A stretch of DNA of 58,786 bases from Gammaproteobacteria bacterium (lineage in GTDB: Bacteria > Pseudomonadota > Gammaproteobacteria > Steroidobacterales > Steroidobacteraceae): positions 1 through 58,786 of the forward strand of contig JAQGOG010000028.1 of the NCBI GenBank assembly GCA_028293765.1, read 5' to 3'. Positions 16,509-39,306 of this stretch are shown one piece after another (positions within the stretch are counted from its first letter, which is position 1; every line of letters begins with the position of its first letter). A model generated the notes under the pieces. That model was not told where the DNA came from. It searched no databases and saw only the letters and a program-made list of their open reading frames with translations. The position numbers and the translations under genes were made by a program.

Positions 16509-17324
16509 TTAGTGCGCTGCCGCGGCCACGGCCACTGCGAACAGGGTGACCAAGCCTGCCGCCTTGGCCAGCAATCCCAATCCGGAGGTCCCGAGCAACG
16601 TGAATGTGACGCGTCGAAAGTTGATATCCGACAGAGACTTGTACAGGTTCACGCCCAGCAGAGTGCACGGCAGAACGATGGGCAGCGTGATCCCGAGCAG
16701 TGCCCAGTATGTGTGGCCGAACGTCTCGGGATGTTCTAACGCCAACATCGCAAGTGACACGAGCTGCAGGCCCAGGATGTAGGGCTGCACTATCGCCCTT
16801 GACTCACTCTTCGGCAGGCGCTGCAGGCCGCTCCAAACGACGACCGCGGCGCCGGGAAATGCGGTAAAGCCCCCGATTACGCCGCCCGCCAGGCCCACCA
16901 GGACCGCGGCGAACCAACTTCCCTGAAGCGCTACGTGCAGGCTGTGCGGCTTCAGCAGCGAATACACCGCATAGACGACCAGGAATCCTCCAAACACCGC
17001 CATCAACGTCGCTGTCGGCAATGAATGCAGGACGCGTAAGCCGACAGGGACACCGAGCAGGCCGCCCACGAGATACGGCGCGGGGCCGTCGGGCCACCAT
17101 TGCCGCAGCGGCCGCAGATCGGCCTGCAGCTGTCCGAGCGACAGCAGTTGGTTGGCCGATGACAAGGTCATCAGCAGCGGGACGCCGAGCTTCGGCGGCA
17201 GCAGCCACAGGCACAGCGCGCCAATGGCGGAAAACCCGAAGCCGGACAGGCCGCTCATGACGGCGGACACGCCCAGTATGCAGACGAGCGCCAGGACAGT
17301 GCCAGGCGAAAACTCGCTTGCCAT
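16509..17324 (-). CDS. Sulfite exporter TauE/SafE family membrane protein
   Basis: A 271-residue integral membrane protein with about eight hydrophobic segments arranged as two similar halves, the pattern of the TauE/SafE (DUF81) family. Members export sulfite, sulfoacetate or other organic anions, and many have unknown cargo. Recognisable blocks are MSGLSGFGFSAIGALCL at the start and VGLAGGVIGGFTAFPGAAVVVW in the middle. The start could be ATG 17324 or GTG 17336; neither has a strong ribosome site. It begins about 59 bases after the HisC-like gene on the same strand, so the two may be one transcript. Confidence 0.8.
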   Translation of the reverse strand: MASEFSPGTVLALVCILGVSAVMSGLSGFGFSAIGALCLWLLPPKLGVPLLMTLSSANQLLSLGQLQADLRPLRQWWPDGPAPYLVGGLLGVPVGLRVLHSLPTATLMAVFGGFLVVYAVYSLLKPHSLHVALQGSWFAAVLVGLAGGVIGGFTAFPGAAVVVWSGLQRLPKSESRAIVQPYILGLQLVSLAMLALEHPETFGHTYWALLGITLPIVLPCTLLGVNLYKSLSDINFRRVTFTLLGTSGLGLLAKAAGLVTLFAVAVAAAAH

Positions 17325-17383
17325 GACTGAAAACACGCTCGCGACGGCTCAACCGTGCCGGTGCTGACTCGAAGGAAAGCCCG

Positions 17384-18598
17384 TCAGGTCCAGACCTTGT
17401 CCAGTGCCGCACAGAAAGCTTCCATGTCGGCCATCGAGCCCACGGTCACGCGCGACACGTTCGGCCAGATGGGCCACGACCGGCCGATCTCGACGCTCTG
17501 GGTGCGGAAGGCGAGCAGCATGTCCTTCGCCGGCCGGGTCTTCCAGTCGATCATGAACATGTTGGCGTCGGTGCGGATGACCTGCACTTTGCGCTTTTTG
17601 AGATGCTCGAGACTCAAGGCCCGGGCTTCCCGCATCTCATTCCGGCGCGCCACGATCAGCTCGGCAGCCGTCAGACTGGCGGTGGCGCAGGCGAGCGATG
17701 GCAGCGGGAGCGCGCCCGACTGCATGCCGCCGTCGTAGCGCATCAACTTCGCGATGATGTCGGGGCGCGTCATGACATAGCCCATGCGCATGCCGGCCAT
17801 CCCGAAAATCTTCGAGAACGTGCGCATCACGATCACGTCCTTGCCGTCCGCCGCGAGGTGGGACGCGGTCGGGACGCCGGCAAAATGCGTGTACGCCTCG
17901 TCGATCAGGACTATGGAGCCTGCCGGCTTGTTGGCGACCAGCCACTCGATGTCGGCCAGCGGGGTCACCGTGCCGGTGGGGTTGTTGGGCGTGCAGATGT
18001 AGTAGAGGCCGGGATTGGGATCCGCGGCCAGCATGGCTTTTACGTCATGCGTGTAGTCTGCCTTCAGCGGTACTCGCTTTACCGACGCTCCCAGCCATTC
18101 GGCGGTTCGGCCCGCGAGCTCGAACGTCGGGTCGGCGGTGACGAGCGCTTTCGTCGGTGAGCAGTAGCTGACGACAGAGCGCGACAGCGGATCGCTGGAG
18201 CCTGGCCAGGGCGCGACGTGGTCATAGGGCACGCCCTCGACCTGCATCACCGCCTTGATGAAGTCGCCGCGCTGGTCCTTGGGGGAATAGCGGTTGCTCG
18301 AGGAGATGATGGCTGCGGCCGCTGCCTGTCCCGGAGTCAACGGACCAGTCCAGCACTCGTTGGCGCCGATGCGGACTTTGGCCTCGGGCGCGGGATCGGG
18401 GACGCCGCCGGATGCCCAGGCGGGGCGGCCCACGCTGGCCGCTACCGAGCCGGCGCCGAACACCGCGGCGATGCGCAGCAGTTGGCGGCGCGAATAGCCG
18501 CGACCGAGCAAATCGTCCTGAGCTTCGGCGGGTAGCGGTTCAGCAGTCTCGCGACTGTTCGGCTCGAAACGGCCGGCTCGAGAAATCGCTTGCGACAT
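17384..18598 (-). CDS. Tat-signal HisC-like aminotransferase (copy 1)
   Basis: A 404-residue fold-type-I PLP aminotransferase of the histidinol-phosphate aminotransferase group with an N-terminal twin-arginine signal. After about 35 polar residues comes YSRRQLLRIAAVFGAGS (arginines 37-38), then a hydrophobic core and a cleavage-like AWAS. The catalytic part has NECWTGPLTP, ICTPNNPTGTVTPLADIEW, VLIDEAYTHF, and the PLP lysine in RTFSKIFGMAGMRMGY. A strong AGGAGG lies nine bases before ATG 18598. Export of a folded PLP enzyme via Tat is plausible, so the substrate is likely periplasmic and histidine synthesis unlikely. A paralogue with the same feature lies at 51183-52355. TauE-like gene follows. 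Confidence 0.85.
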   Translation of the reverse strand: MSQAISRAGRFEPNSRETAEPLPAEAQDDLLGRGYSRRQLLRIAAVFGAGSVAASVGRPAWASGGVPDPAPEAKVRIGANECWTGPLTPGQAAAAAIISSSNRYSPKDQRGDFIKAVMQVEGVPYDHVAPWPGSSDPLSRSVVSYCSPTKALVTADPTFELAGRTAEWLGASVKRVPLKADYTHDVKAMLAADPNPGLYYICTPNNPTGTVTPLADIEWLVANKPAGSIVLIDEAYTHFAGVPTASHLAADGKDVIVMRTFSKIFGMAGMRMGYVMTRPDIIAKLMRYDGGMQSGALPLPSLACATASLTAAELIVARRNEMREARALSLEHLKKRKVQVIRTDANMFMIDWKTRPAKDMLLAFRTQSVEIGRSWPIWPNVSRVTVGSMADMEAFCAALDKVWT

Positions 18599-19126
18599 GT
18601 ACAAACGCCTCCTGCTTGCTGCCAAAGCGAACATCCACCTCTTGCAACAGGGGTATCCAAATGGCGTGCCAGTTGCGGCAACGCGACGCGCGACGGTCAG
18701 GAAACGGTTATAGCGCGAGCACTTGCGCCGACATTCGCAAGTTGGGGCGACTACCAACAGCAAGGTTGTTGTGCACTAGGCCCGTGCGAGTGGGCGAGTT
18801 GCCGCGCTTTGCGGGTGCGCTGGAGGTTGGGTTTGGTGTCAGGTTGGAATCTGTCCTGAACCGTGAGTCGCCTAACCGCCTGTTGCCTTCAACACACGGA
18901 AAGCACCGTCAGGGTGCACGATCCGGTCGGCGCTGCTGCGGTGTTGCACGAGAAAGAGGCGCCGCGTCGGCCGCCAACAGACGAGTGCGGGACTTTGGTC
19001 TCGCGTGGCGCGACAACAGCACCTGGATGTGGTTACTGTCAGGCGGGTCTCGCCGTTCAGTTGCGCGTCGCCGGCGGCGCCGGGGATTTGCGATGAGCGG
19101 CAGCGAGGGTTGGGGCTGAGCGCCGC
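18599..19126. other. Intergenic region between the Moco operon and the HisC-like gene
   Basis: I find no convincing gene in these 528 bases. Open frames on either strand are Arg/Cys-rich and lack start signals or family resemblance. A short inverted repeat CTGAGC-GCC-GCTCAG at 19116-19130 overlaps the stop of the MoaE-MoeB fusion gene and could help end that transcript, though it has no T-run. The promoter of the HisC-like gene should lie near 18620-18760. Confidence 0.4.
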
Positions 19127-20791
19127 TCAGGCGGGCCGACGGCGCTTGAGCTCTGCAATTCCACCGCGCAGGGAGTAAATCGAAAGAAGCCCTCTGGAGC
19201 GCAACTCCTGTGTCGCGGCGAGACTGCGCCGGCCACTTGCGCACACGAGGAGGCTTTTGCCGGCGGGCGCGAAGGCAGGCTGCCCGTGAAGCAGCTCTGC
19301 CAGCGGGATGTGGCGTACTTTCACTGCGGGCGTGGGAATTTCGGCGACTTCGCGCGGCTCGCGGATGTCTACGATTTCGAAGCCCGCGGCGCGCGCGTCG
19401 TCGAGCGAGTCGAAATTGACCTCTAGCTCCGGCGAGTTGGCGGGCTGGAGGTCTGAAGCGGTGCCGCTGCGGCGCGCGTGTTCCGGACAATCTTGCGCGC
19501 GCTTCGCCCGGACCCGCGAAATCGACATTGTCAGCAGGTCCAGCACCAGCAGCTCGTCGCTGAGCTGCCCGGGCAGATCCAGAATCAGCTTCAACGCCTC
19601 GAATGCCTGCAGGCTGCCGAAGGTGCCGGGTACCGGGCCGAGCACTCCGGCCTCGGCACAGTTGCCGACGATGCCGTCTCGGGTGGCTTCCGGCCATACG
19701 CAGCGCAGGCACGCCCCGTCGCGATCCGGACGCACGACCTGGAGTTGCCCTTCGTATTGATACACGCTCGCGAAGATGACCGGCCTGCCCAGTTGGACGC
19801 AGGCGTCGTTGAGCAGGAATTTCGTCGAGAAGTTGTCAGTGCAGTCGATGACCAGATCGTATTGCGCGACGATCGCGCGCGCATTGTGCGGGTCGAGCCG
19901 AAGGGCGTGGATACGAGTGTCGACATCCGGGTTGAGCGCTTGCACTCGCGCGGCGGCGAGGTCTGCTTTGAGTTTGCCGACGTCGGCAAGCGCATACATC
20001 GTCTGGCGGTGCAGGTTGGACGGTTCGAGACGGTCGCCATCGACGAGGCCCAAGCGACCGATGCCGGCGCCGGCAAGATAGCTGATGACTGGAACGCCGA
20101 GGCCTCCGCAACCGACGACCAGCACGCGGCTCGCGCGGAGCTTTGCCTGCCCGGTCGCGCCAACTTCTTTCAGTGCCATTTGACGGGAGTAGTCGGGGAT
20201 TGGCGGTCGCTCATGCGAGTGCGTGCGCGCAGTGGTGCGGGTGTGTGGGCCCGCAGACGAGCGCGCGCGCGTGTCGGTATGCGGGTGCGCAGCTGTGTCG
20301 GTGTGCCTGTGGGCGTGTGAGTGCGCGTGATCTGTACTCTGTGCCGGCGCTTCGTGAGCCGCAGGTGCCGCGCAGCGCTCGCAATTCACCCAGCCGGAGT
20401 CACCGTTCTCGTAGTGCTCCTTTTTCCAGATGGGCACACGGTGCTTGACCTCGTCAATGATGTAGCGGCAGGCGCGGAATGCCTCGTCGCGATGGCGGGC
20501 ACTGACGCCGACCCATACCGCCATCTCCCCGATCGCCAGATCGCCGATGCGATGTATGCAGGCCGCATGTTCGATCCCGAAGCGCTCGCTGGCTTCGGCG
20601 ATGATGCGTTCGCCTTCTTTCACCGCAAGTGGCTCAAAAGCCTCGTATTCGAGGTGCTGAACGCTCAGGCCTTCGTTGTGATTGCGCACCAGGCCTTCGA
20701 ACGACGTATAGCCGCCGCACGCAGGATCGGCGAGCTCGGCGCGCAGCGAGGCGACGTCTATGAGTGTGCGGCTGAAGCGGAATGCGGCCAC
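19127..20791 (-). CDS. moaE-moeB: MoaE-MoeB-rhodanese fusion protein
   Basis: About 554 residues with three Moco domains. MoaE, the large MPT-synthase subunit (about 1-140), shows GYTSFEGLVRNHNEG, LEYEAFEPLA, HRIGDLAIGE and PIWKKEHYENG. A linker of about 55 residues follows, crowded with His and Thr. MoeB, the MoaD-adenylating enzyme (about 200-435), has VLVVGCGGLGVPV, GLVDGDRLEPSNLHRQ, CTDNFSTKFLLNDAC and GNCAEAGVLGPVPG. Its first zinc pair is CLRC; the second appears as CPEH. The C-terminal rhodanese (about 450-554) has the active-site loop VCASGRRS. GTG 20791 with GGGA upstream gives a normal MoaE start; TTG 20812 or ATG 20872 would overlap the mobA-moaD stop. Confidence 0.88.
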   Translation of the reverse strand: MAAFRFSRTLIDVASLRAELADPACGGYTSFEGLVRNHNEGLSVQHLEYEAFEPLAVKEGERIIAEASERFGIEHAACIHRIGDLAIGEMAVWVGVSARHRDEAFRACRYIIDEVKHRVPIWKKEHYENGDSGWVNCERCAAPAAHEAPAQSTDHAHSHAHRHTDTAAHPHTDTRARSSAGPHTRTTARTHSHERPPIPDYSRQMALKEVGATGQAKLRASRVLVVGCGGLGVPVISYLAGAGIGRLGLVDGDRLEPSNLHRQTMYALADVGKLKADLAAARVQALNPDVDTRIHALRLDPHNARAIVAQYDLVIDCTDNFSTKFLLNDACVQLGRPVIFASVYQYEGQLQVVRPDRDGACLRCVWPEATRDGIVGNCAEAGVLGPVPGTFGSLQAFEALKLILDLPGQLSDELLVLDLLTMSISRVRAKRAQDCPEHARRSGTASDLQPANSPELEVNFDSLDDARAAGFEIVDIREPREVAEIPTPAVKVRHIPLAELLHGQPAFAPAGKSLLVCASGRRSLAATQELRSRGLLSIYSLRGGIAELKRRRPA

Positions 20792-20808: not shown

Positions 20809-21663
20809 TCAACCGCCGGCGACCGGAGGAATGAAAACAACCGAATCGCCGTCCGCTAGCGTTTGGGACCACTCTGCGAACTCGGCATTGACCGCCACGC
20901 GGAGCATCTCCGGCGCGAGTGAGAACGGGTGCCGTGCTTTGAGCTCCTCGTAAAGCTCGCGCGGCGTGCGTGCACCGGTGACGAGGGCCTCATCGCTGCG
21001 GCCAGCCTGCTCGCGGAGCAGGGCGTAGTACTGCACTTTGACGTGCTTCGGCGCGAACGTCACATCAGGGCTCAAAGTGGTCATGGCTGAACCATACTCC
21101 TCGGGCGTGTTGATGTTGTCGAGCGCGCGTGGATTCGGTTCGTCGACCAGGTGCGCGTTGGCGTTGATGAGGAATTTGCGCGGACACTGCTTGCCGCTGG
21201 CGACGTGTGCGGCAATGGCTTCCCGGCTGGACGGTTCGTAGATCGCGCACAGCGGCTCGGGCAGACCGTCGTGGCTGGAGCGGAAGGCCGTTGCCGGACT
21301 CTCGGGTCTGCGCACCGCGAGGAGATATTCGAGCGTTGCGCCATCCAGAAAGGGCAGATCGCAGGCGAGCACGAGCCACGCTACGTCGGGATGCTGCGCC
21401 TGTGCCGCCAAGATGCCGGCGATGGGGCCGAGATTGTCGCGAGTATCGACAATCTGCGCAAAGCGCGCCCGAATGGGGTCGTCGTTCTGCTCCGGGCGTA
21501 CCGACACGAAGGCGCGCTCGACGTGCGGCTCGAGAAGGGACATTGCCCACTCGAGTTGCGTGCGGCCGTGGTAGCTGAGCGTGGCTTTGTCCCGTTGCAT
21601 GCGAGTGCTGCGGCCGCCGGCGAGCACGAGACCATATACGGGCGCGGCGCGTGTTGCGTTCAT
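20809..21663 (-). CDS. mobA-moaD: MobA-MoaD fusion protein
   Basis: A 284-residue fusion. The N-terminal part (about 1-195) is MobA, which attaches GMP or another nucleotide to Mo-molybdopterin: [17 protein letters not shown] (the usual RMGxDK Gly is Gln), [20 protein letters not shown], and DNINTPEEY. The C-terminal 80 residues are MoaD, the ubiquitin-like sulfur carrier: [15 protein letters not shown], ending FIPPVAGG with the free Gly-Gly needed for adenylation and thiocarboxylation. Its ATG overlaps the moaC stop (ATGA), which fixes the start at 21663. It precedes the MoaE-MoeB fusion, so both MPT-synthase subunits are tethered to other Moco enzymes. Confidence 0.9.
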
Positions 21664-22139
21664 CGTTTGAAATCCCGCTTGCCGCCCGACTTTTCCAACA
21701 GGCGCACGCCCGTAATCTCGATGTCGTGCGACAGCGCCTTGCACATGTCATAGATCGTGAGGGCCGCGACGCTCGCCCCCGTCAGAGCTTCCATTTCGAC
21801 ACCGGTGCGGTGATGAATGGACACCTCGCAGCGAATGACGATGTCGCCGCCGCGTTTGTCTTCGATCTCGATCGTGCAGTTGTCGAGTCCGAGCGGATGG
21901 CAGAAAGGGATCAATTCGTGTGTGCGCTTCGCCGCCATGACGCCGGCGACGATGGCGGTGTCGAATACCGGGCCCTTCTTCGTGCGGTGACCGCTTTTGC
22001 GAAGTGCGAGCGCCACGGGGCGCGGCAGGCGCACGTGCGCCTCGGCGACGGCGATCCGATGCGTCACTTCCTTCGTGCCTACATCGACCATCGTTGGTCG
22101 GTTGCGGCTATCGAGATGCGTGAGGCCTGAGCGCGACAT
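21660..22139 (-). CDS. moaC: Cyclic pyranopterin monophosphate synthase
   Basis: A 159-residue cytoplasmic enzyme that converts the MoaA product 3',8-cyclo-GTP to cyclic pyranopterin monophosphate. Signature regions are [18 protein letters not shown], the active-site block [28 protein letters not shown] and [13 protein letters not shown] with the catalytic Asp, then [11 protein letters not shown]. The length matches the family. Its start overlaps the moaA stop by one base and its stop overlaps the mobA-moaD start by four, indicating a tightly coupled operon. Confidence 0.96.
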
Positions 22140-23269: not shown

Positions 23270-24472
23270 TCACCAGCGGTGGAGGCGGGTAACGAAGCCC
23301 TTCGGGTAGGTGTTCGGTCCGGGGGGAAGCTCGACGAAACCGTCCGTGCCGGCCAGGGCGGTGAAATCGCCGGAACCGTTGGTGGGGCGCGGCATGGCCC
23401 AGGCCCGGCCCCAGTCGTCCAGCTCAACACGCACTGGAAGGAAGAACGTGAGGGGCGGGTTCACCGTCACCGGGGCGCCGAGCGCCATCTTTTCGGGCAG
23501 GGCGGCGGGGCTCTGGCCCAGGCTCGCAAAGAGGGCCGGCAGCACATACCGGGTCAGGCAAACGAACGTCGAAACCGGATTGCCCGGCAAGGCGAAGACC
23601 GCCGCCCCGGAGGTGGCGACGCCGAACCACAACGGCTTGCCCGGCCGCTGCGCGACCTTATGGAAAATGGAGCGAACGCCGAGCTCGTCGAGGGCTTTGG
23701 GCACCAGGTCGAACTTCCCCATGGACACGCCGCCGCTCAGGACGAGCACGTCATGCGTCTCCAGATGGAACTTGAGCCGACGCTTGAGCTCCGTCAGGTC
23801 GTCGTTGATGTGATCGTCGGCGACGCGCTGAAAGCCGTGTTGCCGTAACGCCGTGACGATGGCGTACGCGTTTGAGCGCCGTATCTGGTGGGGCAGAATG
23901 GGTTCGCCGGGCTCGATCAACTCGTTGCCCGTCGAGATCACTGCCAGCATCGGCTGGCTGCTGACGCGGATGCGGGCCATCCCTGCCGCCGCGGCAATTG
24001 CTATCTCCGGGGCGCGCAACTGCACCCCGCTCGTGACGAGTAGTGTCCCTTGGCGCGTATCGGTGCCGCGGCGATGAACGTTTTGCCAGGGGTCGACTCC
24101 GACGCCGTCAGCAAGCTCCGCGTCTCCATTGCGTATCGCGATCTCCTCGACGGGGACGACGCTGTCGCACCCGGCAGGCACTACTGCCCCGGTCATCACT
24201 TCGATACACGCAGCCCGTGAGCTCAGGACTAGCGGCGGATCCCCCGCCGCCTGCGTAGCCTGAATGCGGAGGCGGCGCAGGCCGCCGCTCACGGCGGCGC
24301 TGTCCAGCGCGATGCCGTCCATGGCCACCCGGTCGAACGGCGGCGCATCCCGCTCAGCGTAGATGTTCTCGCGCAGAACCGCGCCCGCGCACTGCGCGAG
24401 AGGCAGAGACTCGATCGGCAGACACTGGAGGTGCTGCCCGATCAGCTCATCGGCCTGGGCGGGAGTCAGCAC
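23270..24472 (-). CDS. moeA: Molybdopterin molybdotransferase
   Basis: A 400-residue enzyme that inserts molybdate into adenylated molybdopterin, releasing AMP. The N-terminal domains contain RDAPPFDRVAMDGIAL and MTGAVVPAGCDSVVPVE. The MoCF-like domain III has ISTGNELIEPGEPI and VLSGGVSMGKFDLV, followed by GKPLWFG and ALPGNPVSTFVC. The C-terminal beta-barrel is complete. Start is GTG 24472, six bases after the stop of the small secreted protein upstream, so the two are probably co-transcribed. MoeA normally acts on MPT-AMP made by MoaB/Mog, and no gene for that step is in this cluster. Confidence 0.94.
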   Translation of the reverse strand: MLTPAQADELIGQHLQCLPIESLPLAQCAGAVLRENIYAERDAPPFDRVAMDGIALDSAAVSGGLRRLRIQATQAAGDPPLVLSSRAACIEVMTGAVVPAGCDSVVPVEEIAIRNGDAELADGVGVDPWQNVHRRGTDTRQGTLLVTSGVQLRAPEIAIAAAAGMARIRVSSQPMLAVISTGNELIEPGEPILPHQIRRSNAYAIVTALRQHGFQRVADDHINDDLTELKRRLKFHLETHDVLVLSGGVSMGKFDLVPKALDELGVRSIFHKVAQRPGKPLWFGVATSGAAVFALPGNPVSTFVCLTRYVLPALFASLGQSPAALPEKMALGAPVTVNPPLTFFLPVRVELDDWGRAWAMPRPTNGSGDFTALAGTDGFVELPPGPNTYPKGFVTRLHRW

Positions 24473-29804: not shown

Positions 29805-32000
29805 TCAGAATGCCTTGATGGCGATGCTGGCGAAATACGTGCGGCCTTCGCCGGGAATGGCGCCGCTGCCGGTGCCGGCCGCATATAGATAGTTCAGCCT
29901 GTCGAACACATTTTCGACGCCCGCGCGTACGGTCCAGCGATCGCGTGGAATGGCCAGTACCAGGTCGATCTGTGTCGCACCGGGAAGGATGCGCGTCTGT
30001 CCGGCGTCGCCATATTCGCGGTTCCGATAACGAGCGCCGGCAGCGATCTGCAAGGTTCGGATCGGATCGGGCAGCGTGATGTCGTAGCTCGTCCAGAGGT
30101 TGGCGAGCCGGGTCGGTACGCTCGGGACCTGATTGCCGACCAGGGCGGGTGCCTGCGGATAATCGGTCAATGTCGGGGTCTGCAGGGTGAAGTTGGCAGT
30201 GATGTTCAAGCGATCGATCGGCTGCAGGGCAAGATCGGTTTCCCAACCCTTGACGCGATACGAGAACACCTGTGCCTCATCGAGATTGCCCGGTCCGGCC
30301 GGATTGGGCACGAGCAGGATGGTGTAGACGTTCTCGCGCGTGGTGCGGAAGAGCGACGATGACAGGGACAGCCAACCGGAGCGTTGGATTTTCAGCCCCG
30401 CTTCCACTTGCGTACCCTTCTCGGGAAGCTGGCCGACGCTTTGCGGCTCTTCGGTGTTGAAAATCGGATAGCTGCTGGTGGAGTAGCCGCCGAACACCGA
30501 CACTCCATCGGCCAGGCGGTAGAGTGCACCGGCATCCCAGGAGAACAGCGCATTGTCGCTCTCCACCGGCTGGCCGGGTACGAATGGGCAGGTGGTCGCC
30601 CGCAGCGGCGTGCACGGATGCTCCGAGCCCGGGTTCGTCGGGATGACGGAGCGACCTTCGGCCTCGGTGCGGAACCAATCCTCTCGGCCTGAGAAGCGCA
30701 GCTTGAGGCGCTCGCTGAGGTCGATCTGGGCGATGCCGTAGAGGCCGTAGAAGCGTGCGTCGAGGTCAGCGTCGTTGCAGCTATGCGAGGCGTTGCACAG
30801 AAATGTGGGTGCGGCGAGGTTCGCCTCCGGCGTTACCGGCGAAAAAATGTTGGGAATGCTCGGGAGATCGGCGGTGCGCCGCTGTGTGTGGGCATCGATC
30901 CGTCGAGCCTCGGCGCCCGTTACCAGCGTCGTGGGGAAGGGCCCTGCTGAGAATTTCCACGTTGGCTCGGCCTGAAATATTGCGTCCTGTACTTTGTCGT
31001 GCTGCTCGCGCAACTGGCGTCCGGTGAGCGAGAAGGTGTTTCCCGCGGCAGTCAGGCGGCCGCCGGCATTGCGTGCGAGGTCGAGGTCGCGGTCGCTGTA
31101 AGCGCCACGCAGATTCACGACCAGATGCTCGTCCACCGTCCAGGCGTCGCTCAGAAAGATGCGCTTGATGTCCTGATTCGCAAAGGCGTAGGGCGTGTAA
31201 TACGTGTTCGTCGCCGGCACATCGAGAGGCCGGCCTGTGCCGCTCGGCACACCGAAGGGAATTCCGCTGGCGTCCGGCCGGTTCTGCAGGTGGTGATATT
31301 CGAAGCGTAACAGGATGTCATGGTTGGCGCGGTGATAGCCCAGAGAGCCGTAGATTTCGCCGGTCTCGTTGCGCTGTTCGCGGAACCCACTCGAGTGCTG
31401 AAACTCGCCGTCGAGCCGACCGTTCAGACCGGGCAAGCCGGTGGCGCCGTTCAGGGAGGCGCTGGTCGTTGTGGTGTTGTAGGAGCCGTACTGCTCGCTC
31501 ACCGACGCGGAAGCGATGTCAGTCGGCCGCGCATGAACGAGGTTAATCGTGCCGCCGGGCTCGGTACTCCCGAAGAGGGCCGAGCCGGGACCCTTCAGGA
31601 TCTCGACGCGTTCGACACCGGTGAGCGAATGAACAGTGCCGCTCAAATCGGAGGTACCGTCGGGCAACCCGTCGGTGAGGTACGTGGCGTTCAGTCCTCT
31701 TACGATGAAGCGGTCGAAGAAGCCGAAGGCGAATTGCCCTCCCTGCGTCACGCCGCTCACGTTGCGCAGCGTTTCCTTGAGTTCAGTCGCGCCCTGCTGG
31801 TCGATGAGCTCGCGCGGAACGACCTGAATGCTGCGGGGAACGTCGCTGATCGGCGTGCCCGTCTTGTCGAGGGACGCCGGCAAGTCGAAGGGGGCGGTCA
31901 CGACCACAGTGTCCGCATCAGCATCATCGGCATGCGCGCTTGCAGCGATGCCCCAACTTGCCAGACCTACGAGCTCGAGTGCGACCAATAGGCATTTCAT
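29805..32000 (-). CDS. TonB-dependent siderophore receptor
   Basis: A 731-residue outer membrane receptor of the ferric-siderophore type (FhuA/FpvA-like). The signal peptide ends near SAHA and the TonB-box-like segment is DTVVVTAPF. The plug shows DVPRSIQVVPRELIDQQGA, FIVRGLNATYLTDGLPDG and VERVEILKGPGSALFGSTEPGGTINLV, the typical siderophore-receptor blocks. The barrel ends in FASIAIKAF. The extracellular loops include a Cys-rich stretch (CNASHSC). No siderophore synthesis genes are seen, so it may take up siderophores made by others. It lies after a clear hairpin (32073-32102) and is likely transcribed on its own. No Fur box was recognised upstream. Confidence 0.92.
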   Translation of the reverse strand: MKCLLVALELVGLASWGIAASAHADDADADTVVVTAPFDLPASLDKTGTPISDVPRSIQVVPRELIDQQGATELKETLRNVSGVTQGGQFAFGFFDRFIVRGLNATYLTDGLPDGTSDLSGTVHSLTGVERVEILKGPGSALFGSTEPGGTINLVHARPTDIASASVSEQYGSYNTTTTSASLNGATGLPGLNGRLDGEFQHSSGFREQRNETGEIYGSLGYHRANHDILLRFEYHHLQNRPDASGIPFGVPSGTGRPLDVPATNTYYTPYAFANQDIKRIFLSDAWTVDEHLVVNLRGAYSDRDLDLARNAGGRLTAAGNTFSLTGRQLREQHDKVQDAIFQAEPTWKFSAGPFPTTLVTGAEARRIDAHTQRRTADLPSIPNIFSPVTPEANLAAPTFLCNASHSCNDADLDARFYGLYGIAQIDLSERLKLRFSGREDWFRTEAEGRSVIPTNPGSEHPCTPLRATTCPFVPGQPVESDNALFSWDAGALYRLADGVSVFGGYSTSSYPIFNTEEPQSVGQLPEKGTQVEAGLKIQRSGWLSLSSSLFRTTRENVYTILLVPNPAGPGNLDEAQVFSYRVKGWETDLALQPIDRLNITANFTLQTPTLTDYPQAPALVGNQVPSVPTRLANLWTSYDITLPDPIRTLQIAAGARYRNREYGDAGQTRILPGATQIDLVLAIPRDRWTVRAGVENVFDRLNYLYAAGTGSGAIPGEGRTYFASIAIKAF

Positions 32001-32116: not shown

Positions 32117-35100
32117 CTACCTCGCGGCCACCACGACTGCCGGCATCTTATCCTGTTTGATCAGCGCGTTGAACGAAGCCAGGTCATCGGCTTTGATTCG
32201 ATTCCATTCGGCCAGGTACTGCGTTGTCGTGCGCTGCAGCTCTTCGTATTCGACGTAAGCCTGCTGCGTGGGTGCGTTGTCGCCATGACTGACCGACTGG
32301 CCCAGCGATGCTAGCATGTTGTTGAGCCGGATCGGGAAATTGAGGGGATCCTCATGGGCGATCGCCCTGCGCTGGACCAGCTTTTCCTCGACGGCGGAGC
32401 TCTTCTGCTCCAGCGTATCGGCCGCCTGCGTGATCTGGGCCGCGTTCGCCGGCTTGGCGGCAGCGGCGGCAGTGCGAGCCGCGGCAACTTTCTGATGCAG
32501 AGTGCGGATTTCCAACACCGCATTCTGGACGCTGTCGAGCTTATCGTTGATCGCCATGCCCAGATCGAACTGCTTCCTGAGATCCTCAGGCGTCACAGCG
32601 AGGCGCGGATCGGGGAGGATCTCGAACGGCTGGGTCTGGCTCTTGCCGTCGACTGTAATGCGGACCTTGTAGTGGCCGGGCAGCGCGACCGGGCCATCGA
32701 GCGACCCCTGCCACATCGCCGCTTTGGGCACGAGGGTAGCGCCCTCGTACTTCATATCCCAGACATAACGGTTGAGCCCCGCCTTCGCGGTAACGTGCGC
32801 GACCTTGACCGCAGGGCCGTCTTCATCATCGTCTCCTGCGGCTTCGGAGTTGGCCTTACGTGGCACGGGGAAGGTGCGGATCACCTTGTCGTTCGCGTCG
32901 AGGAACTCCAGTTTTACGCGAGCAACCTCCCCCTTGCCGTCATGGTCTGTCTTTCCATCGTGCGCCGCCTTGCCTTCACTGTCCGCTTTATAGTCGTGCG
33001 CAGCCTTCTCGCCGTGCTCCGCCTTGTCTTCGTGCGCTTCCTTATCGTCCTCGTCGGCCGTCTCGGGCCGATCCGCTTCGCCGTTCTTGAGATAGTAGTT
33101 GACCACTACGCCTGACGGCGGGTTGGCGCCGGTCGGCCCTCCCGTCATGTCACCGCGACCGCTGTATTGAATACGGATTGTGGCTCGAGGCGTAAAGAGG
33201 TGCACGTCCTCCCGACTGACGTTCTCGGACCATTGCCGCAGCGGGCCGAGATCATCGAGGATCCAGAACGCCCGGCCATGCGTTGCAACGGCCAGATCGC
33301 CGGCATGGACGCCCAGATCGTGCACCGGCGTGCGTGGCAGATTGAGCTGCAGCGGCTGCCAATGCGCACCGTCGTCGAGGGACATGAAGACGCCGTTTTC
33401 GGTTCCCGCATAGAGCAGGCCGGGCCGGTCGGGGTCGGTTCGCACGACGTGTACGTAGGCATCCGCGGGTATTCCGTTGGTGATCGACACCCAGGTCTTG
33501 CCGAAATCCTCGGTTTTGAACGCGTGCGGCCGGAAGTCGTCGAGGCGATGGCAGTCGACCGCGATGTAGGCCGTGCCGGCCTTGTGCGGATCCGCCTCGA
33601 CCATGTCGACGGTGCCCCATTCTGGCATGTCATGCGGCGTGACGTTCTGCCAGTGCGCGCCGCCATCGGCGGTCAGCTGGACGAGTCCATCGTCGGTGCC
33701 TGCCCAGATCAGATCCTTCTGCACCGGTGATTCCACCAGCGAGAAAACCGTGCCATAGGTCTCGATGCTGGTGTTGTCCTTCGTGAGCGGGCCGCCGGAG
33801 GCCTGCTGCTTCGACTTGTCGTTGCGTGTCAGGTCAGGAGAGATGACGGCCCACGACCTGCCGCCGTTCGTCGTCTTGAAAATCACTTCGTTGGCGTTGT
33901 AGAGCACATGGGGATCGTGCGGAGAGAAGACGAGCGGCTCGGTCCATTGCGCGCGATGTTGCAGATCCTGCGGCGCCCAACCCATCGGATTGCGTGCCCA
34001 GGGGCTGATCGTGGTGAGCTGTCCGGTCTTGTGATCGTACCGGGTTACGTTGCCTTGATAGGCATTCGCGATGACTACGTTCGGATCGGTCGGGTCCGCC
34101 ACGATGTAGCCGCTTTCCCCGCCACCGACCGAGTGCCAGCTTTCCAGCCCGATCGGCCCACGCACGTTGCCGGAAGCGATCGCGACGGTCGTATTGTCCT
34201 GCTGGGCGCCGTAGAGATAGTAGGGCAGCTGGTTATCGATCGAGATGTGATAAAACTGCGCGGTAGGCTGGTTCATCTCGGTGGACCAGCTCTTGCCGCC
34301 ATCGACGGAGACGTCCGCGCCGCCGTCGTTGCTGTTGATCATGCGGCTGGTATCGGCCGGGTTCACCCACAGCTGATGATTGTCGCCATGGAAGGTCGGC
34401 ATTTTCTTGAACTTGACGCCGCCATCGGTCGACTTGTAGGCGCCGGTGTTCATGATGAACACCTTGTTGGCATCCTGCGGGTCGGCGAAGACGTTGGTGT
34501 AGTACCAGGCGCGCTGCTTGTAATCGTTGTCGGAGTTTATGAGCTTCCAGCTCTGGCCCCCGTCGTCGGTGCGGTAGAGGCCGCCTTTGTCGGCCTCGAC
34601 GAGCGCAAAGATGCGCTTCGGGTCGGACGTGGGCGCGACGCCGATGCGGCCCAGAACGCCCTCGGGCAGGCCATGGCCGGTCAGCTTCTCCCAGGTCGTG
34701 CCGCCGTCATGCGAACGATACAGGCCGCTCCCCGGTCCGCCGCTCTCCATGGTCCACGGCTTGCGATAGACCTGCCACATGCCCGCATACAGCACGTTGG
34801 AGTCGGAGGGATCGAACTGCACGTCTATGCCGCCGGTCTTCTCGTCGACATAGAGCACACGCTGCCAGGTCTTTCCGCCGTCGGCCGTCCGATAGATGCC
34901 ACGCTCGCCGCTGGCGCCGAAGGGATGGCCGAGGGCCGCCACGAACACGATGTCGGGGTTGGTCGGATTCACGATGAGACGGCCGACAGCCTGCGAGTCC
35001 CGCAACCCGATGAACTTCCAGGTCTTGCCGGCGTCGCTCGACTTGTAGATGCCGTTGCCAGTAACCACGTTGCCGCGGATGTTGGCTTCGCCAGTACCTA

Positions 35101-35461
35101 CATAAACGATGTTGGCATCGGATGGTGCAACGGCGAGCGCGCCGATCGAAGGTGACGCCTCGGGGAACTTGTCCCACAGCGGCTTCCAGGTGGTGCCGGA
35201 GTCCGTGGTCTTCCACACGCCGCCGGCGGCTGCGCCAAAATAATAGACGTTCGGATCGCGAGGCGTGCCGGCCACGCCCGTGGCGCGGCCGCCCCGGAAC
35301 GGACCGACCAGGCGATATTTCAGACCCGCGAAGGGGGCAGCGGCGGCGGCCTTCGTCAGCTCAACGTTCCCTTTGTCTTTGCGGGCGGCCGCACCTGCGC
35401 CGGCCGCGGCCAGCGCGGCCCCGGACAGCAGTACGATGAGGAGAGACTTGTTCAGGCTCAT
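32117..35461 (-). CDS. Secreted BNR/VPS10-type beta-propeller protein
   Basis: A 1114-residue exported protein. After a signal peptide (about 1-26) it holds many Asp-box/BNR repeats of the form S/T-x-D-G-G-x-T-W (TTDSGTTWKPLW, SSDAGKTWKFIG, TADGGKTWQRVL, TDDGGQSWKLIN). These are expected to form one or two large propellers as in sortilin/VPS10 or glycosidase-related proteins. Near residues 835-885 a charged insert rich in His, Asp and Lys repeats (HEDKAEHGEKAAHD) interrupts the fold. A C-terminal helical part (LEIRTLHQKVAAARTAAAAA) follows. Enzymatic function is unproven. It is divergent from an Lrp-family regulator across 115 bases, which may control it. Confidence 0.85.
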   Translation of the reverse strand: MSLNKSLLIVLLSGAALAAAGAGAAARKDKGNVELTKAAAAAPFAGLKYRLVGPFRGGRATGVAGTPRDPNVYYFGAAAGGVWKTTDSGTTWKPLWDKFPEASPSIGALAVAPSDANIVYVGTGEANIRGNVVTGNGIYKSSDAGKTWKFIGLRDSQAVGRLIVNPTNPDIVFVAALGHPFGASGERGIYRTADGGKTWQRVLYVDEKTGGIDVQFDPSDSNVLYAGMWQVYRKPWTMESGGPGSGLYRSHDGGTTWEKLTGHGLPEGVLGRIGVAPTSDPKRIFALVEADKGGLYRTDDGGQSWKLINSDNDYKQRAWYYTNVFADPQDANKVFIMNTGAYKSTDGGVKFKKMPTFHGDNHQLWVNPADTSRMINSNDGGADVSVDGGKSWSTEMNQPTAQFYHISIDNQLPYYLYGAQQDNTTVAIASGNVRGPIGLESWHSVGGGESGYIVADPTDPNVVIANAYQGNVTRYDHKTGQLTTISPWARNPMGWAPQDLQHRAQWTEPLVFSPHDPHVLYNANEVIFKTTNGGRSWAVISPDLTRNDKSKQQASGGPLTKDNTSIETYGTVFSLVESPVQKDLIWAGTDDGLVQLTADGGAHWQNVTPHDMPEWGTVDMVEADPHKAGTAYIAVDCHRLDDFRPHAFKTEDFGKTWVSITNGIPADAYVHVVRTDPDRPGLLYAGTENGVFMSLDDGAHWQPLQLNLPRTPVHDLGVHAGDLAVATHGRAFWILDDLGPLRQWSENVSREDVHLFTPRATIRIQYSGRGDMTGGPTGANPPSGVVVNYYLKNGEADRPETADEDDKEAHEDKAEHGEKAAHDYKADSEGKAAHDGKTDHDGKGEVARVKLEFLDANDKVIRTFPVPRKANSEAAGDDDEDGPAVKVAHVTAKAGLNRYVWDMKYEGATLVPKAAMWQGSLDGPVALPGHYKVRITVDGKSQTQPFEILPDPRLAVTPEDLRKQFDLGMAINDKLDSVQNAVLEIRTLHQKVAAARTAAAAAKPANAAQITQAADTLEQKSSAVEEKLVQRRAIAHEDPLNFPIRLNNMLASLGQSVSHGDNAPTQQAYVEYEELQRTTTQYLAEWNRIKADDLASFNALIKQDKMPAVVVAAR

Positions 35462-36509: not shown

Positions 36510-38969
36510 TTAGAACCGGAACCGAAAGTCGAGACCGATCACCCGCGGCATCTCGGCCAGAACCCGCACCGCGTCGGCGCCGCCCTGCGAGGCACCGTTG
36601 CTCTTGTTGGTGAGGCCGATCTTGTCGAACAGATTGTTCACGAAAAGATAGGCACCCCAGCGATCATCGTCGCTCTGCACGCCCGAACGCAGTCCCGTAA
36701 TGGAATAGCCGGGCAGCTTCTGCTGATAGGCGTTCGTGCGGTGATACACCGTCCACGAGTCGCCGATATAGTTCACGTCGCCGCGGGCCAGGATTTCCAG
36801 ACCGCCGCTGATCGGGAAGGTGTATTGCGCCGCGGCCTGCGCCGTTACTTTCGGGGTGAAAGGTACGTAGTCGCCGTCGACACCGGCACCGGTGATCGTG
36901 ATTCCCGCAGGCGCAGTCTGGTTGCCCTGCAACCGCGCTAACGTGTAGGAGCCCGATGCCTGCAGCACGAGCCGTTCTCTCGGCCGATACGTCGACTCGA
37001 ACTCTGCGCCCCGCACCCGGACCTTGCCGGCGTTGGTGATGAAGCTGAAGGTGCTGCCGTTGGATTGCGCGGTCGTCGTCTGTGCTGACGATTGGATGTT
37101 GTTCCAATTGATCTGGAAGATGTCGGCGTTGATGATCACCTTGCGATCCAGCCACGACGATTTGAGGCCCGCTTCGTAGTCCCACAGGCTGTCCGACTTG
37201 TACGGCCCGAGCTTATCGGGCAGACCGATGACCTGGTTGACGCCGCCCGGCCGGAACCCTTGCGAGGCCTGGGCGTAGCCCAGCAGATCGTCGCTGAACT
37301 TGTAGTCGACGTTGAACTTCGAAACCGTGCCGTTCTCGGAGAAGCGGGCCGTCGTAGCCGGCGACACCACGACGCCGATGACCGGGTTGCCGATCTGCAC
37401 CGCGCCCGTGGTGGCCTTCTTGTAATTGAAATAGCGGGTGCCCGCGGTCAGGCTGAGCTTGCTGGTAACGTCGTAGCTCACCTCACCGAAGCCGGCGTAT
37501 TGATCCAGAACGTCAGCGACCGTCCGCTGATAGGCCACGGTTGGCGCGCGGGTGACGCTGCCAACCACGACCGGAACCGCGCTCACCGGAGTGAGCATCC
37601 TGCCGGTCGCCGGGTCGACAGTGTTCAGCTGACTGAGGATGTCGGCCGTGCGATGCGAGCCGTAGCCGCCGATCGTCCATTTGAACCGCGTATCGCCGAC
37701 CGAAGACAGACGGATCTCTTCGGAGGTGGTCGTGGTGTCCTGCGGCTGATAGGCCGTTATCGGATCGAGCGACAGCGCATACTGCTTGTAGCCTGTGAGC
37801 TGCGTCGGTGTGCAACTCGCACCGCCGGTGGAGTTGTAGTTCTTGCAGCCCGCCGAAGTTGCGGTTGCATTGTTGGAGGCCGTGCGGAAATAGGGCGAAT
37901 AGTCGAAATTGGCGGTCAGGGCGCGGTCTGAGTAGGAGCCGACGGCCGTCAGGGCCGCGAAGCCGAGGTTCCAGTTGAGCGTGCCGCTGTAGACGCGCAA
38001 CTTGTCCGTCTGCGGCTGCAGCGACTCGTAATTCTGGTCATAAGGCTGGTCGCCGCCGAGATAGCTCTGATAGTTCCAGTTGTTGTTCCAGCCGCGCGTG
38101 TTCTGGATCACCGCCAGCCCATCGAGCGTCACGTCCTCATTGGGCTTGAAGCGCGCGAGTACGCGGCCGCCATCGCTGCTGCGGTCGTTGAAATCCCGCA
38201 ACCCGAGGCGATTGTTATCGAGCCAGCCGCTGCGCTCCTGGCGGAAGCCGATGATGCGCACGGCGAGCATGTTGCTGATGAGCGGCAGGTTCACCATGCC
38301 CTGCTCCTGATCGCCCCAGCCGCCGTGCGCGACCGAGCTCACCTGTCCCTGTACCGCACCTTCGTAGTTGACGAGGTTCGGCTTGTTGAAAATCAGGCGC
38401 ACCGTGCCTGCCATCGAGCCTGCGCCGTAGAGCGTGCCCTGTGGGCCGCGCAACACCTCGGCGCGCTCGATATCGAACAGACGGATCTCCGGAGTGCTGC
38501 CGCCGGCGTCATTGGTTACGCCGACCGAGCCGATGACGGGCGTCTCGTCATAGTAGAGCCCGACGGTCGGTTCGCCCGCCGCCTGGATGTTACGGATAAT
38601 GACACGGCTGCCGCCGTTGGCATTCTCGCGGAACACGAGGCTCGGCGTGGAGCGGGCCAGCTGCTGGCTGTCCGAGATGCCCATGTTGGTCAGCGTTTGC
38701 TCGCTGATGGCGGAGATCGCCAGCGGTGTCTGCTGAATGCTGGTGGACCGCCTGAGAGCGGTGACGACGATCGTGCTGTCGTCTGAGTCGGTGGTTGAGA
38801 CAGTTGCTGCGCTGGCCGCCGTCGGAGAGGCTTGTTGGGGCGCCGGCGCGGGCGCTTGATCGGGCGCCTGGTCTGCCACGGCGGCTGTCGTGAGCAGAAG
38901 ACCGGAAGAGAGCAGGGCAATGCGCGCTGCGAATGGCCGGAGGGCCGCGCGGCTATAACCAGATTTCAT
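36510..38969 (-). CDS. TonB-dependent outer membrane receptor
   Basis: An 819-residue receptor. It has a signal peptide with cleavage near AAVADQ, a Pro/Ala/Gln-rich spacer, a TonB-box-like TIVVTALRR, and a plug domain (TPLAISAISEQTLTNMG, RVIIRNIQAAGEPTVGLYYDETP, VLRGPQGTLYGAGSMAGTVR). The barrel ends in GLDFRFRF. This plug type is widespread in sphingomonads and relatives, where ligands include plant-derived or aromatic compounds as well as iron complexes; the true substrate is unknown. ATG 38969 is preceded by GGGGAG. The decayed amidohydrolase lies 23 bases downstream, suggesting the pair once processed and imported one substrate. Confidence 0.92.
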   Translation of the reverse strand: MKSGYSRAALRPFAARIALLSSGLLLTTAAVADQAPDQAPAPAPQQASPTAASAATVSTTDSDDSTIVVTALRRSTSIQQTPLAISAISEQTLTNMGISDSQQLARSTPSLVFRENANGGSRVIIRNIQAAGEPTVGLYYDETPVIGSVGVTNDAGGSTPEIRLFDIERAEVLRGPQGTLYGAGSMAGTVRLIFNKPNLVNYEGAVQGQVSSVAHGGWGDQEQGMVNLPLISNMLAVRIIGFRQERSGWLDNNRLGLRDFNDRSSDGGRVLARFKPNEDVTLDGLAVIQNTRGWNNNWNYQSYLGGDQPYDQNYESLQPQTDKLRVYSGTLNWNLGFAALTAVGSYSDRALTANFDYSPYFRTASNNATATSAGCKNYNSTGGASCTPTQLTGYKQYALSLDPITAYQPQDTTTTSEEIRLSSVGDTRFKWTIGGYGSHRTADILSQLNTVDPATGRMLTPVSAVPVVVGSVTRAPTVAYQRTVADVLDQYAGFGEVSYDVTSKLSLTAGTRYFNYKKATTGAVQIGNPVIGVVVSPATTARFSENGTVSKFNVDYKFSDDLLGYAQASQGFRPGGVNQVIGLPDKLGPYKSDSLWDYEAGLKSSWLDRKVIINADIFQINWNNIQSSAQTTTAQSNGSTFSFITNAGKVRVRGAEFESTYRPRERLVLQASGSYTLARLQGNQTAPAGITITGAGVDGDYVPFTPKVTAQAAAQYTFPISGGLEILARGDVNYIGDSWTVYHRTNAYQQKLPGYSITGLRSGVQSDDDRWGAYLFVNNLFDKIGLTNKSNGASQGGADAVRVLAEMPRVIGLDFRFRF

Positions 38970-39306
38970 GAGAACTCCCCAATTTTTTTGAACTCCAGGC
39001 ACGCCATGGGGCGCAGCTGGAGCCTTGTCGCGCGCGCTGTCTCGGCCGCGCTCCGGTTACGCTTCGCGAGACGCGAGTGCTCGTCGGACGAGTGCTCGCC
39101 AACAAAAATGACGCGCTGCTACAGAAATTAGGCTAGCGGAATGCTGGGGGGGTTCTTGCCAAATTTTAGGGCGAATAGGCTAAAGTTTAGTAACTTGAAC
39201 CAATATTCAGCGTTATCGGAGTCGAATACGCTAACTTTGGATTTCTTGAGAAACCCTCGCGATAGTCGGCGTCTTGCAGAAGTGGCACCGCTGATCGAGT
39301 GGGTTG
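38970..39306. other. AT-richer intergenic region with a palindrome
   Basis: These 337 bases separate the heme importer genes from the TonB receptor and contain no gene. The part from about 39160 to 39250 is markedly more AT-rich than the rest of the window. It includes the perfect 11-base palindrome CTAAAGTTTAG at 39180-39190. The promoter of the minus-strand receptor should lie here, and the palindrome is a candidate operator or part of a start region. No recognised consensus was matched. Confidence 0.4.

Follow-up and report, generated by a model that had tools for sequence, protein, structure and literature searches.

A MoaE-MoeB-rhodanese fusion protein encoded in a molybdenum cofactor operon of the Steroidobacteraceae

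Background

Two sulfurs are inserted per cPMP (passages in PMC5372717), and the carrier MoaD has to leave MoaE in order to meet MoeB for adenylation, according to the part of PMC4326299 that deals with this step. Several of the proteins involved have been described as fusions, and the types in print comprise MOCS3/MoeBR, MoaD-MoaE, MoaD-MoeB(R), MoaC-MoaE and MobB-MoaE. MOCS3, Cnx5 and MoeBR consist of an E1 followed by a rhodanese with a persulfide-type Cys loop, together with a helper Cys position (excerpts of PMC5372717 and PMC3227635), and two CxxC motifs are given for MoeB and MoeBR in an excerpt of PMC3227635. For MOCS3, passages on URM1 describe a persulfide at C412 that forms a disulfide, which C239 can cleave with release of the thiocarboxylate (PMC5372717). 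MoaX and other MoaD-MoaE fusions join MoaE to its carrier (excerpts of PMC4326299 and PMC11237513), fusions of MoaD with MoeB or MoeBR are described for Archaea (passages in PMC11237513), and MoaE also occurs in MoaC-MoaE and MobB-MoaE (passages in PMC11237513 and PMC4443979). Gephyrin and Cnx1, with fused G and E domains, combine successive steps of the same pathway, and a title cited in PMC11489736 reports product-substrate channelling in the gephyrin fusion. A passage of PMC9370521 states that the plant proteins of the second and third Moco steps interact within the cell.

The DNA analysed here, referred to as the window, is a stretch of 58,786 nucleotides from a member of the Steroidobacteraceae, and it encodes a chain in which MoaE is followed by a ThiF/MoeB-type E1 and a rhodanese. 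The E1-rhodanese order, the Cys loop and the helper Cys position are those of MOCS3, Cnx5 and MoeBR, so that the comparison with the MOCS3 layout drawn in an earlier note on this DNA was apt, but the fusion differs from these proteins by the MoaE added in front via a histidine-rich tether and by an altered second CxxC. As in MoaX, MoaE is chained to another part of the sulfur cycle; in MoaX the fused part is the carrier, which needs cutting free, whereas here it is the recharger, and MoaD is encoded separately in the upstream gene, joined to MobA. The archaeal fusions likewise attach a rhodanese-bearing recharger to a part of MPT synthase, this part being the carrier there and MoaE here. MoaC-MoaE and MobB-MoaE share the placement of MoaE within a multidomain chain but have no E1 or rhodanese part, and gephyrin and Cnx1 belong to a later pathway step and are built from unrelated domains. 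No description of a MoaE-MoeB or MoaE-MoeB-rhodanese protein was found in the open-licence literature searched, and no such fusion appears in the places covered, 12 out of 13, of a 2018 survey (PMC6147048). The protein combines known parts in an architecture that is new in the literature searched; it is well supported as a protein and moderately interesting as a mechanism.

Results and discussion

The fusion protein and its operon

The coordinates of the fusion, its domains and the neighbouring genes are compiled in Table 1. The fusion frame is free of stop codons further back to a GTG at 20872, inside the 3′ end of mobA-moaD. The triple fusion proposed in the earlier note is borne out by Pfam on this one frame of 554 aa, with 125.5 bits for MoaE (cut-off 23.4), 255.2 bits for the ThiF-family adenylating domain and 24.1 bits for Rhodanese, the last being just over the cut-off of 22.2. 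The weak rhodanese call was checked and upheld: the domain folded alone gave a pLDDT of 87.8 and matched solved rhodaneses (best 3gk5, Foldseek E 3.4e-06), a profile of the domain found rhodaneses among the PDB sequences (best E 2.3e-19), and Pfam Rhodanese was matched by 64 of 66 aligned relatives. The fusion is the one MoaE found in the window's genome, which is 98.83% complete. In the predicted model of the whole chain, the pTM of 0.61 and the poorly modelled loop directly after C378 (residues 379-382, pLDDT below 50) make the placement of the domains unreadable, and in the structure comparison of the whole model the list was filled by E1-type chains and bears on neither the MoaE nor the rhodanese domain.

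Table 1. Features of the fusion gene and its operon in the window
Feature	Residues	Position	Strand	Basis or remark
MoaE-MoeB-rhodanese fusion	554 aa	19127..20791	(-)	single uninterrupted frame, GTG start
MoaE domain	10-118	20438..20764	(-)	Pfam MoaE
CERC motif behind MoaE core	137-140	20372..20383	(-)	C137 invariant in 66 aligned fusions
Histidine-rich tether	141-198	20198..20371	(-)	11 of 58 residues are His; modelled at low confidence
ThiF/MoeB-type E1 domain	201-436	19484..20191	(-)	Pfam ThiF; with D319, C361/C364, C378
CPEH instead of second MoeB CxxC	435-438	19478..19489	(-)	motif reading
Rhodanese domain	467-549	19145..19393	(-)	Pfam Rhodanese; loop CASGRRS, C517 at 19241-19243
mobA-moaD fusion, presumed sulfur carrier		20809..21744 (frame; true start probably near 21663)	(-)	Pfam
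moaC		21660..22139	(-)	profile matches
moaA		22139..23269	(-)	profile matches
moeA		23270..24472	(-)	profile matches

The genes moeA, moaA, moaC and mobA-moaD follow one another on the same strand, and the run closes with the fusion gene, which a gap of 17 bases separates from mobA-moaD upstream. The C-terminal sequence of MobA-MoaD is ..FIPPVAGG, which leaves the MoaD tail free. MobA and MoaD share one frame at 30 of 44 fused loci, a set that includes a few duplicates, and are separate at 13, the remaining locus having no MobA match. Where MobA and MoaD share a chain, the enzyme of the later GMP-adding step would be drawn into the complex as well.

A further joined frame was seen in an uncultured proteobacterium (L098), in which MoaC and MobA form one frame of 396 aa adjoining a MoaE-MoeB-rhodanese fusion. 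Just downstream of the operon in the window, genes for a TauE/SafE-type transporter and a class I/II aminotransferase are located on the (-) strand at 16509-17336 and 17384-18763. At 32117-35461 (-) the window also encodes a protein of 1114 aa with Sortilin/Vps10-type and BNR repeat matches, flanked by TonB receptor genes at 29805-32000 and 36510-39002.

Occurrence and origin of the fusion

The domain-architecture search suggested in the earlier note came out in its favour. Among the matches listed, 120 out of 5098 proteins passing the E-value, MoaE and ThiF were counted by hand in one protein in all 120 homologues (70-100% identity, one of them the window's own), and a precomputed rhodanese call was also present in 96; some of these homologues bear joint automatic names. 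The order sample of 246 genomes contained 62 genomes of the window's own family with a MoaE match, and among the 51 for which frames were listed, 36 had a MoaE frame of at least 500 aa by hand count; the MoaE-E1 architecture is common in this family. For 14 further genomes whose MoaE frame reaches at least 500 aa, two of them (G003 and G023) from other families, the DNA was checked, and MoaE and E1 were encoded without an intervening stop in every case. Of 321 genomes sampled across the class, 232 had a MoaE match, and among the matches listed frames of at least 500 aa were found in the window's genome and one family member. In a scan of named genomes, for which 80 of 382 confirmed loci were kept, some of them entered twice (e.g. 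L072/L082 and L073/L084), MoaE and E1 were in one frame at 35 loci. These belong to Steroidobacteraceae and other proteobacterial MAGs, two Rhodanobacter MAGs, six Dyella strains including D. japonica DSM 16301 and D. kyungheensis THG-B117, and one Bdellovibrionales MAG. Because related bacteria carry the same protein, the fusion is real, and a sequencing or assembly error that merged two genes, named in the earlier note as a possible refutation, is ruled out by the 120 fused homologues and the 35 fused loci; such an artefact has practically no chance of being the explanation. Split but adjacent MoaE and E1 genes were found in G225 (L068) and in a Halobacteriovorax MAG (L116), and unfused relatives within the same genus provide ready controls for effects of tethering. 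A protein of 252 aa (P0197) consists of MoaE and the start of a ThiF domain with a very short, His-bearing linker between them.

On an E1 tree of 92 rows, from which 18 of 110 distinct rows were dropped, all of them stand-alone E1s of other bacterial groups, 45 of the 46 fused rows fall inside one clade of 48 (100/98), whose other members are the split copy of G225 and two contig-edge rows. A clade of its own, with 17 members, is formed by the relatives' stand-alone MoeBR proteins, and the fused Bdellovibrionales row (L111), which has a long branch, does not fall within the main fused clade. The fused/unfused label needs five changes on this tree, with L102 and L109, whose starts are close to a contig edge and which could be truncated fusions, counted as unfused. 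On the MoaE tree (96 rows, 138 columns) ten label changes are needed, at least four of them forced, and 31 of 93 inner branches are open. Some unfused forms are nested among fused ones on the MoaE tree and may be fissions. The fusion may have arisen once or more than once.

Conserved residues

The earlier note had described the motifs of all three domains as intact, which holds for the conserved residues and fails for the second MoeB CxxC. The residues invariant in the 66 aligned fusions include R36, H100, R101, K116 and K123 of MoaE, R262, K275, D319, C361, C364 and C378 of the E1, and C517, R522 and S523 of the rhodanese. In the alignment, C378 falls on the Cys of NCRTAGVVGP (E. coli ThiF) and of SCGEAGIMGP (Uba4), a position that we take to be the place of C239 in MOCS3. 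The MoaE lysines K116 (20444-20446) and K123 (20423-20425) align, through L170 to 1fm0_E, with K119 and K126 of E. coli MoaE, of which K119 is reported to be essential and K126A to be nearly 60 times slower in a passage of PMC4443979. To judge from its motifs, the domains of the fusion look functional.

With regard to the MoeBR/MOCS3 type, a C-terminal rhodanese with a Cys loop and an invariant C517 is present, and of the two CxxC zinc motifs the first is found as CLRC; as the second is altered, the fusion is named MoeBR-like and is not filed as MoeBR. None of the NCBIfam equivalog cut-offs for MoeB, ThiF and MoaE was reached by the fusion, the scores and cut-offs being 186.5 and 376.55 for TIGR02355, 241.3 and 275.25 for TIGR02356, 234.1 and 266 for PRK05690, and 304.2 and 449 for PRK08762.

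The carrier served by the E1 half

The E1 half scores slightly higher against E. coli ThiF than against E. coli MoeB, in line with a reading in which the E1-rhodanese half works mainly for thiamine or another sulfur carrier and stands beside MoaE through operon history only. The window's genome contains two ThiF-family and two ThiS-family matches, the second pair being located on contig C206 inside a run (L196 137-6346) that was read, with gene names taken from the translations, as thiC, thiO, thiS, thiG, thiE, thiF and thiD. This thiamine operon with its own ThiF elsewhere in the genome disfavours a role of the fused E1 as thiamine ThiF. Moreover, in G010, G215, G221 and G023, four of the nine fused relatives, a single ThiS/MoaD-family gene was found, the MoaD beside the fusion, and a main role for thiamine or another carrier is accordingly very improbable. 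Since a lone ThiS/MoaD-family gene adjoins the fusion in these four and a separate thiamine ThiF exists, the E1 half most likely serves MoaD, an assignment that rests on genomic context because no NCBIfam equivalog cut-off was reached and the ThiF score was slightly better.

The other five fused relatives contain three ThiS-family matches each (G213, G066, G245 and G003) or two, one of them weak (G102). A single ThiF-family match is present in G010, G215 and G023, and a second MoeB-type gene with its own ThiS-like neighbour in G213, G066, G245 and G003. Among the relatives with unfused MoaE, 14 of 15 have a stand-alone MoeBR, and in G225 the operon has a copy of the fused type next to MoaE but split from it. 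Most simply, this genomic context is read as each carrier having an E1 to itself, the fused one being for MoaD. The motifs, the pairing with the carrier and the presence of the fused E1 where a stand-alone MoeBR is absent speak for the earlier suggestion that a single chain is both user and recharger of the MoaD thiocarboxylate.

As separate observations, a stand-alone MoeBR with an adjacent ThiS-like gene forms a second E1-carrier pair in G213, G066 and G245 (L063, L062 and L055), and the ThiF on C206 has a rhodanese-like C-terminal stretch with a Cys loop and a partial Rhodanese match.

Proposed sulfur relay

The fusion probably joins the large subunit of MPT synthase to its own sulfurase, as a tethered MOCS3-like relay in which MoaD would shuttle between two docking sites. 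The MoaE domain would bind cPMP and draw sulfur from the C-terminal thiocarboxylate of MoaD, at the tail of MobA-MoaD. Spent MoaD would then leave MoaE and dock on the E1 of the same or a partner chain, where it would be adenylated. A persulfide on rhodanese C517, for which a cysteine desulfurase is the presumed first sulfur donor, would be handed to MoaD, with C378 probably aiding release as C239 does in MOCS3, and the recharged MoaD would return to MoaE. The long flexible tether would hold the two mutually exclusive docking sites of MoaD near each other and, because it keeps them close, would allow a quick supply of the two sulfurs per cPMP; channelling, which the earlier note gave as an inference, may occur in the fusion. 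With such a natural MoaE-MoeBR chain, it can be asked whether MoaD is recharged inside a single assembly and whether the tether makes the two-sulfur reaction faster.

The histidine-rich tether

The pLDDT of the model is below 50 over residues 136-194, and the histidine content of the tether compares with only 13 His among the 496 residues in the remainder of the protein. In 121 sequences, which include the window's own protein twice, the stretch after CxxCA has a length of 9-106 residues (median 55) and contains 2-26 His (median 12), and HxH was observed 906 times in the linkers as against 296 times in shuffled linkers. The His-rich tether is not universal, with little or no His in L066 and L075; in Dyella the second Cys is absent and the His are kept.

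A tether that is long, disordered and variable could also be a site at which the chain, once made whole, is cut, so that its parts would work as ordinary MoaE and MoeBR and the fusion would fix equal dosage only. The cleavage of MoaX in the cell (passage in PMC4326299) and the existence of genomes with split genes are in keeping with this. Unlike in MoaX, there would be no need for such a cut, as the C-terminus of MoaD is already free in another protein, and the joined form occurs in 36 of the 51 own-family genomes with a MoaE frame listed; cleavage in the tether, which bears on the second refuting case of the earlier note, separate proteins from this locus, is considered unlikely, and the tethered relay is preferred.

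C-terminal CERCA with one to several His is often found in the order's unfused MoaEs. Only the first Cys is kept in four of 11 unfused MoaEs from one set, and the Cys is absent from all eight MoaEs compared from more distant families of the class. Among 120 listed matches to a Halobacteriovorax MoaE used as seed, the first Cys is present in 114, CxxC in 51 and CxxC with at least three His in 46, counts that are biased towards the tail because the seed MoaE itself bears it. The tether probably developed from a tail of MoaE in which Cys and His were already present, though the unfused forms nested among fused ones on the MoaE tree may be fissions. The Cys-headed tether and this derivation went unmentioned in the earlier note, as did the separate thiamine ThiF and the frequency of the architecture in the family.

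With respect to its function, the Cys/His tail might be a metal site near the active site of MPT synthase that shields or metallates the new dithiolene, so that the chain would make, recharge and shield MPT. Metal binding is guessed from the composition and pattern of the tail and from its conserved Cys, and this role as a whole is regarded as distinctly doubtful. To our knowledge, it is not established at which step copper joins MPT, a point that the passages found on the subject leave unconfirmed. A search of open-licence papers on MoaE with "histidine-rich" returned no paper. The tail is a testable candidate metal site that is present in unfused relatives too. A tail of W-x-x-C-x-x-C and His was seen in unfused MoaEs (P0122-P0241), some of them named Halobacteriovoraceae, Akkermansiaceae and Lentisphaerales, and the same set includes a Bacteroidetes-type unfused MoaE with WVFC and His.
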